Of a stretch of 64,000 bases of DNA, positions 16,393-58,512 are shown one piece after another (position 1 is the stretch's first letter; the number at the start of each line of letters is the position of its first letter). The DNA lies in NCBI GenBank assembly GCA_025916675.1, contig CP098402.1, positions 429,205 through 493,204 on the forward strand, written 5' to 3'. Origin of the DNA: Phycisphaera sp. (lineage in GTDB: Bacteria > Planctomycetota > Phycisphaerae > Phycisphaerales > UBA1924). The notes under the pieces are model-generated. The model was not told where the DNA came from. It saw only the letters and a program-made list of their open reading frames with translations, and ran no database searches. A program made the translations under genes and the position numbers.

Positions 16393-17718
16393 ATGCGAGC
16401 AATTCTTTCAGCAACCATCGTGGCATTGGCGGCGTGTTCGGGCCTGGCCCAGAGCGATGAGGTCATCCGTGAGGGATCTGGCGATCGTCGCGAGGCCCTG
16501 AATGCCATGGAGTTGAGCGCGTTCGATCGCTCGCTGCTGGATGGGTTGACCGAATGGACCGGCGAGCCGATCAAGGCCGACGACCTCGACGGCAAGCCCT
16601 TGCTCATCCTGACATGGGCGAGTTGGCACACCGGCTCGACGGCCTCGGCCCGCATGGCCGAGCAGATGGCCAAGACGTTCGCGGACAAGGGCCTGGTGGT
16701 CCTCGGCGTGCACTCGGACGAGGGCTACGACACGGCCGCGCAGACGGCCGAGCGGCTCCGGCTGAGCTATCCGGTGGCGCGCGACGAGGGCACGAAATTT
16801 CGTGCGGGTATCCGTGCCGACATGGACCCGAACTTCTATGTCGTCGACCGCGCGGGGCAGTTGCGTTTTGCGGACATCACGCGGACCAGCGTGCGTGATG
16901 CCCTGCGGATCGTGACCGACGAGACGCGTGAGCAGGCCGCCGGGGCGATGGCCCGCCGGAGCGATTCGAATGAGCCCGCGTCGCGGGTGATCGCGAGTGT
17001 GGCCGAGCATGATGCGGCGAATATTCCGAATTGGAGCATCCCGCCGCAGGACGTGACGCTGTACCAAGATGCCAACTGGCCGGCCCGATGGCTTGCGGCC
17101 GAGACACAGGCTGGCGCGGACTTTGAGAATCGCGGCCGGACGGAGTTGCCGATCGTTGATTTCAATACCGAGTTGGTCAACTGGCTGGGCCCGAAGCCGA
17201 CGCTCGATGGGCGTGTTCGGGTGGTGTATTACTGGGCGCACACGATTGGTGGCAGCTACGAGCGTGTGCAGCCCTACATGGACGAATTGCAACGCCGCCA
17301 TGGGCGCGATATCGCCGTGATCGGCATGGCCGAGCCTATCCTGACGATCGATCGGCGTGAGGCTCGTCGCAACCCGACGATGCTGGACGATGCGCTCAAC
17401 GAGTTCTTCAAGTCCCTGACTGCCATCGTGACCCGCACCCAGGTGAAGCACTCCGTGGCATTCGATCGGCAGTTCGAGATGTACTCCTCGTCGCTCGGCA
17501 AGGAGATCAGGGGCAACGACGCCGTGATCCAGATGGCCCGCGAGTTCAAGTATCCGATCGCGGTTATTTACAGCACCGACAACTCGGTGCGTTGGCTGGG
17601 CAACCCGCTGAACGATCGTTTTGAGGTGGCGTTGAACCGGATCGTTGATCTCGATCCCGCCGTCCAGATCCGTCGCCAGCGCGATGAGGCGTATCTGGCG
17701 CGTCAGAACCGACGCTAA
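16393..17718 (+). CDS. exported protein with two cysteine-less thioredoxin-like domains
   Basis: A 441-residue protein with a short signal peptide (MRAILSATIVALAACSGLAQ). Residues about 45-175 look like a TlpA/AhpC-type thioredoxin fold (LDGKPLLILTWASWHTGS ... VVLGVHSDEG ... FYVVDRAGQLRFADI), but the CxxC position reads WHTGS. A second similar fold follows (VRVVYYWAHTIGGSYERVQPYMDELQ ... DIAVIGMAEP ... IAVIYSTDNSVRWLGNPL), also without cysteines. It therefore cannot act as a dithiol oxidoreductase by the usual chemistry; binding or chaperone use is one possibility. Followed 11 nt later by trmL. Confidence 0.7.
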   Translation: MRAILSATIVALAACSGLAQSDEVIREGSGDRREALNAMELSAFDRSLLDGLTEWTGEPIKADDLDGKPLLILTWASWHTGSTASARMAEQMAKTFADKGLVVLGVHSDEGYDTAAQTAERLRLSYPVARDEGTKFRAGIRADMDPNFYVVDRAGQLRFADITRTSVRDALRIVTDETREQAAGAMARRSDSNEPASRVIASVAEHDAANIPNWSIPPQDVTLYQDANWPARWLAAETQAGADFENRGRTELPIVDFNTELVNWLGPKPTLDGRVRVVYYWAHTIGGSYERVQPYMDELQRRHGRDIAVIGMAEPILTIDRREARRNPTMLDDALNEFFKSLTAIVTRTQVKHSVAFDRQFEMYSSSLGKEIRGNDAVIQMAREFKYPIAVIYSTDNSVRWLGNPLNDRFEVALNRIVDLDPAVQIRRQRDEAYLARQNRR

Positions 17719-17729
17719 CCCGACCGGCC

Positions 17730-18245
17730 ATGGGATCCAGCACGAGCGTTCCGCGATTCCACGTCGTGCTGCACGAGCCGGAAATCCCGAACAACACGGG
17801 CAACATCGGCCGCACCTGTCTGGCGATGGGTGCGGCCTTGCATTTGATCGAGCCGCTCGGTTTCGATTTGGATGAGAAGGCGCTGCGGCGCGCGGGGCTC
17901 GATTACTGGCCGCGATTGGATCCGAGCGTGTACCCGAACTGGGCGGCGTATCTGGCGGCGTTTCCGGATGCCCGGCGGTGGTACTTCACCTCCCGGCGTG
18001 GACGGCCCCACTTCGAGGCGGTGTTCGAGCCGGGCGATCACCTGGTGTTTGGCAAAGAGACGGCGGGTCTGCCGGCCGAGATTCTTGCCGGGCAGGAAGC
18101 CTGGGGCGTTGGCATCCCGCTGCGGGTAGGCGAACGGAGCCTGAACCTGTCGACGGCGGTGGCCCTCGGTCTCGGTGAGGGGGTCCGCCAACTCGTCGCC
18201 GATGGCCGCCAGGGGCTAGTGGACGGGCTGCACCTGCCCGTGTGA
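17730..18245 (+). CDS. trmL: tRNA (cytidine(34)-2'-O)-methyltransferase
   Basis: A 171-residue minimal SPOUT methyltransferase that methylates the wobble ribose of certain leucine tRNAs. The family motifs are complete: EPEIPNNTGNIGRTCLAMGA (motif 1 with the SAM-site NTG), LVFGKETAGLP (motif 2) and IPLRVGERSLNLSTAVALGLGE (motif 3; NLSxxVA). The length equals the usual 150-170 residues and there is no accessory domain, which separates it from TrmH and RlmB. It is 11 nt behind the thioredoxin-like gene, and a hairpin with T-run directly follows the stop. Confidence 0.92.
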   Translation: MGSSTSVPRFHVVLHEPEIPNNTGNIGRTCLAMGAALHLIEPLGFDLDEKALRRAGLDYWPRLDPSVYPNWAAYLAAFPDARRWYFTSRRGRPHFEAVFEPGDHLVFGKETAGLPAEILAGQEAWGVGIPLRVGERSLNLSTAVALGLGEGVRQLVADGRQGLVDGLHLPV

Positions 18246-18263
18246 GTTCTTGCGGGTTGGTAG

Positions 18264-18288
18264 TGTTGCGAAATCGCAACATTTGTTT
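18264..18288 (+). terminator. intrinsic terminator after trmL
   Basis: TGTTGCG (18264-18270) pairs perfectly with CGCAACA (18275-18281) across an AAAT loop, and TTTGTTT follows. It is 19 nt after the trmL stop, so it probably ends the preceding transcript. The 7-bp stem is short but the T-run is good. Confidence 0.6.
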
Positions 18289-18321
18289 GAGCCAAAATCG
18301 AACAAACAAGTGCTGAGAACG

Positions 18322-18327
18322 TATAGC
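18322..18327 (+). promoter_or_regulatory. candidate -10 box for the structured RNA
   Basis: TATAGC at 18322-18327 lies 5-7 nt before the point where the structured RNA begins (TGTGG at 18332), which is the right distance for a transcription start. No clear -35 hexamer is present 16-18 nt upstream. Called mainly for its position between the trmL terminator and the structured element. Confidence 0.35.
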
Positions 18328-18331
18328 TTTA

Positions 18332-18453
18332 TGTGGACCGCCCCGGCCGGGAACGCAAGGGCCGGGGGACGCCCAGGAAGGGCCGGACCCACACGCATCT
18401 CTCTCTCCTCCTCCGGTGTACGACACGTCTTGAAACGTGTCGTACACTGTTTT
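18332..18453 (+). ncRNA. candidate structured small RNA (three-way junction, CU-rich seed, terminator)
   Basis: No known RNA family recognised. An outer stem (TGTGG 18332-18336 with CCACA 18389-18393; CCG 18338-18340 with CGG 18384-18386) encloses two hairpins: CCCCGGCC/GGCCGGGG (18341-18348 and 18360-18367, loop GGGAACGCAAG) and GCCC/GGGC (18371-18374 and 18380-18383, loop AGGAA). An unpaired pyrimidine stretch (18396-18414) containing CCTCC then precedes a strong terminator-like hairpin at 18416-18447. The set could be a stand-alone small RNA whose CCUCC segment can pair with Shine-Dalgarno sequences, or a 5' leader of the next gene. Pairing was found by eye. Confidence 0.5.
18416..18453 (+). 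terminator. 13-bp perfect hairpin with T-run before lipoprotein gene
   Basis: GTGTACGACACGT (18416-18428) and ACGTGTCGTACAC (18435-18447) are perfect complements across the loop CTTGAA, followed by TGTTTT. As RNA this is a strong intrinsic terminator that would end the structured RNA. As DNA it is also a long dyad that could bind a repressor. It lies directly against the ATG at 18454, so it would also affect translation of the downstream gene. Confidence 0.6.
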
Positions 18454-18687
18454 ATGGCTAAGAGATTTCGCCGAATGAATCGATCGGGGCGTCTGGCACT
18501 GTCGGTTGTTGTCGGCACGGTGGCCACCTGCTCGGCGGGCTGTCGTGATCCTCTGATCACTGAGAACCAGGTCCGCAGCCCCTTCCACCGCTACGACCGG
18601 ATCCGCAATCAGGATTCGGACACGTTTGTTCGCGACGAGTTTGGCCGTGCGAGGCCGAACGTGGCCGCTCGGCTTGCGCCAAAATGA
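18454..18687 (+). CDS. small lipoprotein
   Basis: A 77-residue protein (70 if ATG 18475 is used). The N-terminus is basic, then a hydrophobic stretch (LALSVVVGTVATCSAGC) ends in a lipobox-like SAGC, so export and lipidation are likely. The mature part is short, charged and has no known domain (DPLITENQVRSPFHRYDRIR ... RPNVAARLAPK). The ATG at 18454 abuts the upstream hairpin and lacks a ribosome site; ATG 18475 has AAGAGA about 9 nt upstream and may be the real start. Function unknown. Confidence 0.6.
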   Translation: MAKRFRRMNRSGRLALSVVVGTVATCSAGCRDPLITENQVRSPFHRYDRIRNQDSDTFVRDEFGRARPNVAARLAPK

Positions 18688-18831
18688 GCCTATAACAGCG
18701 GCATTCGCTGCGACTGTCATCGCTTACGCATAATCGGACGCAAATAAGCAAAGCGGAGCTTCGGTGTATTCCGATGCACTCTTGCGCGATCGTGCGCTAC
18801 TCTCGCTTCACACCGATTCACTGGACCCGGC

Positions 18832-19551
18832 ATGACCATGGATGGCAGGCTGAATATGGACTCGCGGGACTCAAGGTCTACGGGCGGCCAGGCCGTTTTG
18901 AGCGCGTTGCTGCGGTCTCGCCGGGGCATGGTGCTCACGAGCTTCGCGGCATCGATGGTGGGGCTGGCTTCGATGCTGGTGCTGATCGAGGGGCAGCGGA
19001 CGCCGACGGTTGGTGGTCGTAGCATTGCCCCGATGGCGGTTTCGGCGGTGGGTGTGTCGCTCGAGGCGATCACCGAGCCGCCGGCAAGCCTCGATCGGAA
19101 TCGCTGGAAGCGGATCGTGATCCACCACAGCCGGTCTCGCCACGGCGACGCGGCCCAGCTCGCCCGGACCCATCAGTCGATGGGGCTGGCTGGGCTCGGG
19201 TACCACTTTGTGATTGGCAATGGCCGTGGCATGTCCGACGGCGAGTTGCACGTGGCCGAGCGTTGGCTGCGTCAGCAGCCGGGTGCCCACGTTGCGGGGC
19301 CGGATAGCCTGGCGTACAACCGCGACTCGATCGGCGTTTGCCTGGTGGGCGACGGGCGGCTGGAGGCGTTTGGGCGTGGCCAGATGGACCGGCTCGTGGC
19401 GGCGGTTTCGACGCTGGCGCGGGAGCTGGATATCCCTGCGAGCCAGATCCACATGCACGAGGACGTGGCTGGGGTTGACGATCCGGGTCCGTACTTCCCC
19501 CGGGACAGCTTCTACCAGCGTCTGGCGGAAGCGGGCGTGCGGTCTCGATAA
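18832..19551 (+). CDS. N-acetylmuramoyl-L-alanine amidase (Amidase_2/PGRP type), membrane-anchored
   Basis: A 239-residue zinc amidase that cleaves the bond between MurNAc and L-alanine in peptidoglycan. A transmembrane helix (about 33-52) anchors the catalytic domain outside the membrane. Zinc ligands fit the family: the first histidine in RIVIHHSRS (98/99), the second in QIHMHEDVAG, and an aspartate in VDDPGPYFP in the third position, as in AmpD rather than the cysteine of T7 lysozyme. LGYHFVIGNGRGMSDGEL and NRDSIGVCLVGDG are typical of the fold. ATG at 18832 or 18838. Confidence 0.88.
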   Translation: MTMDGRLNMDSRDSRSTGGQAVLSALLRSRRGMVLTSFAASMVGLASMLVLIEGQRTPTVGGRSIAPMAVSAVGVSLEAITEPPASLDRNRWKRIVIHHSRSRHGDAAQLARTHQSMGLAGLGYHFVIGNGRGMSDGELHVAERWLRQQPGAHVAGPDSLAYNRDSIGVCLVGDGRLEAFGRGQMDRLVAAVSTLARELDIPASQIHMHEDVAGVDDPGPYFPRDSFYQRLAEAGVRSR

Positions 19552-19675
19552 CCCGTACGCGGGCCGCTGGCTGCAACCGATCCTGCTCGAAGCCGAACAT
19601 ACCGGTGAGCCGCGACGTTCCCTACCGCGGTGAAAGTGTGCGTGAGTCTTCCGGACAAACGACGCTAGCGGAACG

Positions 19676-20848
19676 ATGGAACAATTACGAAAGCTGTCGT
19701 TGAACAGGGCCCCGGAAGGGGCAATCGCCTGGGCCGGAGGATCGGCCCCGGCGCGTCCGAGAGTTGGTGCTTTGGGCGGGCCTGGGCCGTCGGGGCAAGT
19801 TGCCGCGAATCCGGGGCCGTCACGGGCCGATAGACCGGCTACCGTAGTCGCCCCTGCGGTAGCCCCTGCGAAGAATGGGCTGTCGGGGCGATTGGGGCGT
19901 TTGAGAACGGATTCCCGAGATACATCGGGGCACGCCTCAAGCTGGAACTGGGAGGAGCAGTCACCTTTGGAGCCGCTTCGCAAGGGTGAGGTCATCGAGG
20001 GGCACCGTGTGCTCGACGAACTCGGCCGGGGGGCCGCGTCGATTATCTATTTGGCCCAGGATGAGAAGTCCAAGCAGATTTACGCGTTGAAGCACGTGAA
20101 GCGTGAGACGACCAAGGACCAGCGGTTCCTGGAGCAGGCCGAGTATGAGTACAAGGTGGCCAGCAAGCTGGACCACCCGAACATTCGCAAGATCCGGCGG
20201 ATGATGAAGCGCAAGCACCTGCTGAAGGTGAAGGACCTGTTCCTGGTGATGGAGCTGGTTGACGGCTTGGCGATGGACGAGAACCCGCCGAAGACGTTCG
20301 ATGACGCGTTGTCGGTGTTCCACCAGGTGGCGCTGGCGTTGGGGCACATGCACGAGCGTGGGTTCGTACACGCCGACATGAAGCCCAACAACGTGGTGGT
20401 GTCTCCCGATGGGACGGTGAAGATCATCGACTTGGGGCAATCGTGCGCGACGGGGACCATCAAGCCCCGGATCCAGGGCACGCCGGACTTTATTGCCCCC
20501 GAGCAGGTGCACCGCCGGGCGATCACGCCCAAGACGGACATCTACAACCTTGGCGCGACGATGTACGCGGTGCTGACCGATAAGCGTGTGCCGACGGCGC
20601 TGGCGAACGACGACTCGCTGCTGGGGTCGCTGGACGACAGCATGATCGAGAAGCCCACGCCGGCGATCGAGCTGAACGAGCGCATCCATCCGAAGCTGAA
20701 CGACGTGATCATGCAGTGCGTCGAGGTCGACCCTGCCAAGCGGCCCGAGTCGATGGTGTACGTGGCCGACCGGCTGAACCTGGTGCAGGGCATCATGCGG
20801 GCCGAGGCGGAGAAGGCGACTCCGGTGCGTTCCACGCCCACGACCTGA
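19676..20848 (+). CDS. soluble Ser/Thr protein kinase (non-RD)
   Basis: A 390-residue Hanks-type kinase without any membrane helix or C-terminal sensor. A low-complexity N-terminus (1-100) precedes the kinase domain: ELGRGAASIIYLA (P-loop), catalytic lysine K139 in YALKHVKRE, catalytic loop HADMKPNN (D234, K236, N239), metal-binding D252 in IIDLGQ and FIAPEQ. The HRD arginine is alanine, so this is a non-RD kinase and may not need activation-loop phosphorylation. A metallophosphatase starts 34 nt downstream, then the flagellar cluster, suggesting a reversible phosphorylation pair. Confidence 0.9.
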   Translation: MEQLRKLSLNRAPEGAIAWAGGSAPARPRVGALGGPGPSGQVAANPGPSRADRPATVVAPAVAPAKNGLSGRLGRLRTDSRDTSGHASSWNWEEQSPLEPLRKGEVIEGHRVLDELGRGAASIIYLAQDEKSKQIYALKHVKRETTKDQRFLEQAEYEYKVASKLDHPNIRKIRRMMKRKHLLKVKDLFLVMELVDGLAMDENPPKTFDDALSVFHQVALALGHMHERGFVHADMKPNNVVVSPDGTVKIIDLGQSCATGTIKPRIQGTPDFIAPEQVHRRAITPKTDIYNLGATMYAVLTDKRVPTALANDDSLLGSLDDSMIEKPTPAIELNERIHPKLNDVIMQCVEVDPAKRPESMVYVADRLNLVQGIMRAEAEKATPVRSTPTT

Positions 20849-58438: not shown

Positions 58439-58512
58439 GGGAAATCTCCTGTTCTTGGGGTGGGAAACAAGGATAGGTCGGCCTCGCTCGACTGGGTTCA
58501 TACACTGGGCTC

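Follow-up and report, generated by a model that had tools for sequence, protein, structure and literature searches.

A candidate trans-acting small RNA with an exposed CU tract, probably under an ECF sigma factor, in Phycisphaerae

The plus strand at 18300-18453 of the window, the 64,000-nucleotide stretch of Phycisphaera sp. DNA analysed here, has the full layout of a small RNA (sRNA) gene: an ECF-type promoter, a structured 5′ body, an unpaired 17-nucleotide CU tract and a 15-bp terminator. The best explanation overall, and one we consider probable, is that this is a gene for a trans-acting sRNA, sRNA-A, which forms an independent transcription unit, is induced by an ECF sigma factor and represses through its CU tract. 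It would be a new sRNA of the known CU-rich, ECF-dependent type, in a lineage, the Phycisphaerae, for which the literature matches listed (coverage leaving out most subscription journals) describe no trans-acting sRNA. If true, this would give the lineage an sRNA regulon open to experiment, its sigma factor named, its seed defined and siblings to compare, and it would place an ECF-sigma stress response coupled to CU-rich repressor RNAs at a great distance from Proteobacteria and Firmicutes.

The unit lies between trmL (17730-18245; the best NCBIfam model is TrmL, at a score below its cut-off) and the gene for a 77-amino-acid lipoprotein (18454-18687), in a genome (G000) assembled as a single contig of 3.6 Mb. 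The features are as follows:

18300-18323, plus strand: ECF-sigma-type promoter, with −35 GAAC at 18300-18303, a 16-nucleotide spacer and −10 CGTA at 18320-18323
18331-18453, plus strand: predicted sRNA-A transcript of about 120 nucleotides, from the promoter and terminator positions and a fold z of −3.8
18332-18393, plus strand: structured 5′ body, outer stem 18332-18336/18389-18393 enclosing hairpins 18341-18367 and 18371-18383
18398-18414, plus strand: CU tract TCTCTCTCTCCTCCTCC, 17 nucleotides, with a CTCCTC core and unpaired in genus folds; proposed anti-Shine-Dalgarno seed
18414-18453, plus strand: intrinsic terminator, a 15-bp stem (18414-18449) plus TTTT, its hairpin covarying over 19 segments
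18443-18448, plus strand: TACACT, probable −10 of the lipoprotein gene, in the terminator 3′ arm; enriched at 36 family loci
18454-18687, plus strand: neighbouring 77-amino-acid lipoprotein gene, not part of the sRNA; present in 157 of 163 family genomes

A discrete sRNA-A transcript is predicted from these signals, its 5′ end being placed 7-9 nucleotides downstream of CGTA. The original prediction had proposed the order promoter, body, CU stretch with a CCTCC-type motif and terminator, and every one of these parts is present in the sequence. Its details needed revision: the hairpin described as 13 perfect base pairs actually has 15 pairs, one of them G-U, and ends in a short T-run, and the TATAGC taken for a −10 element is better read as part of the ECF-type −10 CGTA, paired with the −35 GAAC, because GAAC-N16/17-CGTA is kept across genera and the bases that follow vary. 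A sigma-70 reading of this promoter was rejected: 17000-20000 yielded no consensus site, and what follows CGTA differs between genera. Further upstream, at 18262-18278, lies the palindrome GTTGCGAAATCGCAAC, with similar palindromes at a like position in several genus members; the original prediction took it for the trmL terminator, and alternatively it is perhaps an operator upstream of the sRNA promoter.

The body (18331-18394) folds as an outer stem with two hairpins at −33.7 kcal/mol (z −2.1; 6 of 200 shuffles equally stable), and none of 200 shuffles was as stable as the CU tract with its terminator (18395-18453; z −7.0) or as the whole RNA (18331-18453; z −3.8). Rfam 15 gave no match at gathering scores, either in the window or in eight loci with A-, B- or C-type units (B and C being the siblings described below), which bears out the claim that no known family fits; the unit is almost certainly an sRNA gene outside Rfam. 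Sub-threshold matches in 18200-18560 (MIR5304, mir-944 and mmgR/suhB) were discarded as chance, lying far below gathering scores and, for two of them, on the terminator arms alone. Rhodopirellula-1, a candidate RNA of Proteobacteria and Planctomycetes, appears without an Rfam number in the table of PMC2864571.

Within the genus, BLASTN matched all six other genomes, in G002 by just the 3′ part, and the promoter-plus-tract pattern is present in 7/7 (the G003 contig ends before the hairpin); outside the genus BLASTN found no clear homologue (best E about 0.005). The folds of the window, G001, G004, G005 and G006 show a three-way-junction body, which is alignable in G003; G002 has one long hairpin in its place, and comparison with other genera showed that the three-way body is not conserved there. 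The CU tract is unpaired in all six full-length genus folds, and its length varies, reaching 21 nucleotides in G001.

Over the six alignable genus sequences the named structure holds in 94.9% of cells, and 4 of 35 pairs have changed on both sides, 3 of them in the terminator and 1 among the 20 body pairs; by this comparison the body is conserved in the genus but barely tested by covariation. The CTCCTC core of the CU tract is invariant in 19 chosen aligned segments, over which the terminator hairpin holds in 89.8% of cells, with 12 of 14 modelled pairs changed on both sides. The terminator covariation score over these segments was 0.70, against 0.23 ± 0.03 for shuffled and at most 0.22 for slid versions; since terminators at unrelated sites may have independent origins, this shows selection for the hairpin and not descent. 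Compensatory change in the stems, which the original prediction had named as a check, was thus found in part: the terminator covaries beside an invariant CU core, the body stems do so slightly, and the body itself is absent in G002 and outside the genus.

Beyond the genus, we sorted the family genomes by eye from sequence and found a clear unit in 27 of 37 and a probable one in 5 (G012, G016, G019, G028 and G032); in the other 5 (G010, G011, G021, G024 and G035) no A-type unit was found by the patterns used. Clear copies also occur in 4 of 24 genomes from other families of the order (G038, G049, G053 and G056). In 61 genomes, promoter and tract separated by 20-50 nucleotides were found at 16 places, spread over 13 genomes, with 7 places for the control; a separation of 51-81 nucleotides gave 19 places, in 19 genomes, with 12 for the control. 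These counts lie modestly above their controls and hence are not decisive alone. Such places run on into a hairpin, nearly always with a T-run, in 11 of the 16 short-gap cases and 14 of the 19 long-gap cases (G003 additionally being cut off). We did not count L091, L094, L100, L101, L102, L133, L134, L143, L150 and L191 as members; L096, with a strong hairpin and a poor T-run, was counted.

A covariance model, R1, drew training sequences from 16 of the 37 family genomes. It matched 36 of the 37, the best E in each being no higher than 2e-7, and 20 of the 21 that had not contributed to training. Among the 24 genomes from the rest of the order R1 matched 15 at E ≤ 0.1 and 7 at E ≤ 0.001; two of the seven were training sources. 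In a class sample it matched 31 of 198 at E ≤ 0.001, with rough E-values: 11 from the family, 6 from the rest of the order and 14 from other orders, where the respective denominators (11, 23 and 164) were judged by list order and 147 unmatched genomes have no individual listing.

In nine of the 27 family genomes with a clear unit (G007, G013, G017, G020, G022, G025, G026, G030 and G034) the unit lies away from the lipoprotein gene, and all of these but G017 (8/9) have no promoter motif at the lipoprotein locus. The neighbours of the unlinked copies, named by eye, differ: one position is after dnaK, another between miaA and topA, others near glyA- or moxR-like genes or upstream of a nucleoside-transporter-like gene. 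This independence from the lipoprotein gene is the main argument for a trans-acting RNA, the reading that the original prediction had favoured and that also draws on the presence of the unit throughout the genus, the fixed spacing of its promoter and the covarying terminator beside an invariant core.

The promoter spacing was evident from 36 family regions of 400 nucleotides upstream of the lipoprotein gene (L036 was left out before counting, for a contig end). GAAC-Nk-CGTA occurred there at k = 16 in 13 regions and at k = 17 in 9, together in 21 regions, and no other k between 8 and 27 was seen in more than 1 of 36; the reversed, complemented and reverse-complemented control motifs occurred in 0, 1 and 0. 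Outside the family, 1 of 13 upstream regions had the motif with N16/17. Where the motif is present, a pyrimidine tract and hairpin usually lie downstream, and the intervening body differs in length and sequence. Across the whole genome the longer GAACN{16,17}CGTATA occurs at three places, one of them inside a gene, against one for the control, so no wider regulon is definable from it.

Among the 27 Sigma70_r2 matches of G000, just one sigma gene, G000:C1:2453985-2454611, has GAAC-N16/17-CGTA within 550 nucleotides upstream, where chance would give about 0.45 such genes by rough estimate. We found orthologues of this gene in 24 of 25 genomes and, with L257 and L274 left out beforehand for contig ends, the motif lay within 300 nucleotides upstream in 14 of 22 (k = 16 in 3, k = 17 in 11, any other k in at most 1); since the motif was the reason for choosing the gene, its own copy is best left out, which makes 13 of 21. 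All six genus orthologues have it, 70-99 nucleotides before the matched start. Control motifs were found in 0 of 22, and the motif itself upstream of none of the other 26 sigma genes of G000. The 8 of 22 orthologues without it include those of G008 and G015, whose sRNA-A does carry the motif.

Pfam classes the product of G000:C1:2453985-2454611 as an ECF sigma. The highest-scoring NCBIfam models for it, the unnamed sigma PRK12513 followed by SigW, stay below their cut-offs, and the adjacent protein gives a weak anti-sigma match. SigW reads a CGTA −10 and serves envelope stress. Canonical EcfG promoters, as given in PMC8103513, have AAC/CGTT. Judged from its GAAC-N16/17-CGTA promoter, sRNA-A is very likely under an ECF sigma. 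That the motif is kept upstream of the orthologues of one ECF sigma gene (6/6 in the genus, 14/22 overall) suggests that this sigma probably autoregulates and drives sRNA-A as well, and we consider it likely that G000:C1:2453985-2454611 encodes the factor concerned.

The neighbouring 77-amino-acid lipoprotein has no Pfam or NCBIfam match. Its gene is found in 61 of 61 relatives (E ≤ 0.1, weakest 0.08) as well as in 157 of 163 family genomes, and served as the anchor for locating upstream regions beyond the genus; the pattern PLL...RSPFDRYD...DEFGRR.PNL.GRL occurs family-wide. TACACT lies within 130 nucleotides upstream of the lipoprotein match at 26 of 36 family loci and 1 of 13 others, 89 permuted hexamers at the same 36 loci giving a mean of 0.4 and a maximum of 6, and it is also present at lipoprotein loci without any sRNA; it is probably the −10 of this gene. 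At loci with a linked sRNA-A, the terminator usually has TACACT in its 3′ arm, as it does here, 5 nucleotides before the ATG. The ATG (18454) follows directly on the T-run, so that the terminator overlaps the gene's probable promoter. TACACT a few bases before a start codon is also seen at window position 58501 and at many lipoprotein loci, and it may serve leaderless or short-leader mRNAs of the lineage as a general −10.

In the window and in several relatives the lipoprotein start comes right after the terminator, an arrangement that would suit a cis-acting leader, a riboswitch or attenuator whose body decides whether the terminator forms and so controls read-through into the lipoprotein gene; the original prediction had offered such a leader as its alternative. 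We find this improbable, for the unit occurs without that gene adjoining it in nine family genomes and the gene occurs without the unit at other loci, where it still has its own probable −10. Nor is the body conserved between genera as an aptamer would be, and the minimum-energy structures of the full-length genus folds contain no alternative pairing of tract with terminator. The reading frame is uninterrupted here from 18250 to 18687, across the element, but a coding role for the element, as a peptide or an N-terminal extension of the lipoprotein, is scarcely credible and was rejected: the ATG at 18331 is ACG in G001, G005 and G006 and the alignment has gaps of 1 and 2 nucleotides, so neither start nor frame is kept.

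GGA is present in both body loops of the window sequence, which would suit an RNA that acts chiefly through protein binding, such as a CsrA-type sponge, and not by pairing. We place this reading low, since these loops are not a constant feature: neither loop of G006 contains GGA, the body of G002 is a different one, and none of this body occurs in other genera. The part that is conserved is the CU tract. The tract might itself be a by-product, such as a U-rich pause or Rho-related site without regulatory role, in a promoter/terminator remnant or ordinary intergenic terminator; terminators and pyrimidine runs are common, and the targets discussed below are candidates. An invariant CTCCTC core directly before terminators across contexts and genera, promoters of fixed spacing and three genus-wide copies make that unlikely, and we prefer a trans-acting sRNA that acts through its tract.

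GGAG/GAGGAGA matches the CU tract by complementarity. The genome contains 19 copies of GGAGGAGAG, against 6 for its control; three of the 19 are complements of CU tracts, and few are at gene starts. The best sites lie at the start of the gene for a 499-amino-acid exported-looking protein (L189; predicted duplex −24.1 kcal/mol) and in the GGAGGAGAGGAGAG leader of a second protein of exported appearance (L196, G000:C1:3140064 region; −29.4 kcal/mol). The L196 gene adjoins a similar second gene, and its leader is a strong candidate pairing site. Among crude start regions in the window, 6 of 46 beat the 5% control in predicted pairing; the lipoprotein's own start region pairs poorly with the tract (−7.2). 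Shine-Dalgarno motifs precede 9 of 46 window starts, against 8% at random places, and Shine-Dalgarno use in this genome looks modest.

We lean towards the view that sRNA-A acts by pairing of its CU tract with leaders, for which an anti-Shine-Dalgarno mechanism, by analogy with LhrC and from the tract itself, is most likely. Stress would lead the ECF sigma of G000:C1:2453985-2454611 to read the GAAC/CGTA promoter and sRNA-A to be made; the 5′ body would be an exchangeable structured cap and not the active part, and the exposed tract would pair with Shine-Dalgarno or leader sequences of the GGAG/GAGGAGA type, lowering the translation or stability of those mRNAs. The siblings B and C have a tract and terminator of this type behind promoters of their own; they would respond to different signals, and their targets would overlap with those of sRNA-A.

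LhrC1-5 of Listeria monocytogenes is, in the account of PMC4132741, a multicopy sRNA of 111-114 nucleotides whose CU-rich sites pair with the Shine-Dalgarno region of its target and which is induced by cell-envelope stress through the two-component system LisRK. It is a multicopy CU-rich sRNA of similar kind with a stress link, and no sequence relation to sRNA-A is known. LhrC, as described there, has three CUCCC-type sites, two of them in loops, and almost identical copies, whereas sRNA-A has one single-stranded tract before the terminator, an exchangeable body and copies with different promoters. The RpoE (sigma-E)-dependent sRNAs MicA, RybB and MicL of Escherichia coli are presented in PMC8103513 as made by an ECF sigma and forming the repressive arm of its regulon. 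Their seeds and structures differ from those of sRNA-A, whose link to a sigma factor consists solely of a shared promoter motif. Cuckoo/CcsR-type RNAs of Proteobacteria are stress-linked, bear anti-Shine-Dalgarno-like CCUCC motifs in hairpin loops and are processed from a transcript with a small protein gene; in sRNA-A, by contrast, the motif is single-stranded and the gene stands alone.

R1 finds three copies in G000, namely A, B (G000:C1:1933456-1933509) and C (G000:C1:3103386-3103438). B and C are likewise present in 7/7 genus genomes, so that the genus has several genes per genome sharing one type of unpaired CU tract. B (L228, L185) consists of little beyond tract and terminator, with a sigma-70-like −10 upstream by eye, and has close relatives in the six other family genera examined. 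C (L235), upstream of a prepilin-like gene, has CCGATTA in 7/7 genus genomes, and CTTTCTCCCTCC. GAAC-N16/17-CGTA is absent before the B and C tracts in the stretches scanned (about 90-100 nucleotides at minus-strand loci, 190 elsewhere).

We give roughly even odds to a wider reading that joins two propositions. One is that related anti-Shine-Dalgarno-like sRNAs, undescribed in the papers searched, form a family of siblings that extends across this planctomycete family and, less densely, the order and class, with, in this genus, three genes per genome that share a seed under three different promoters, one of which answers to an autoregulated ECF sigma and so supplies it with a repressive arm. 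The other is that in many members the hairpin that ends sRNA-A also serves as promoter for the gene behind it, which would set the ending of the sRNA and the start of the lipoprotein mRNA in competition for one piece of DNA; such an overlap of terminator and −10 would be a simple form of coupling between neighbours, and one open to testing. Near G000:C1:1955780 (L186), outside the R1 matches, a further CU tract stands directly before a terminator hairpin with a long T-run.
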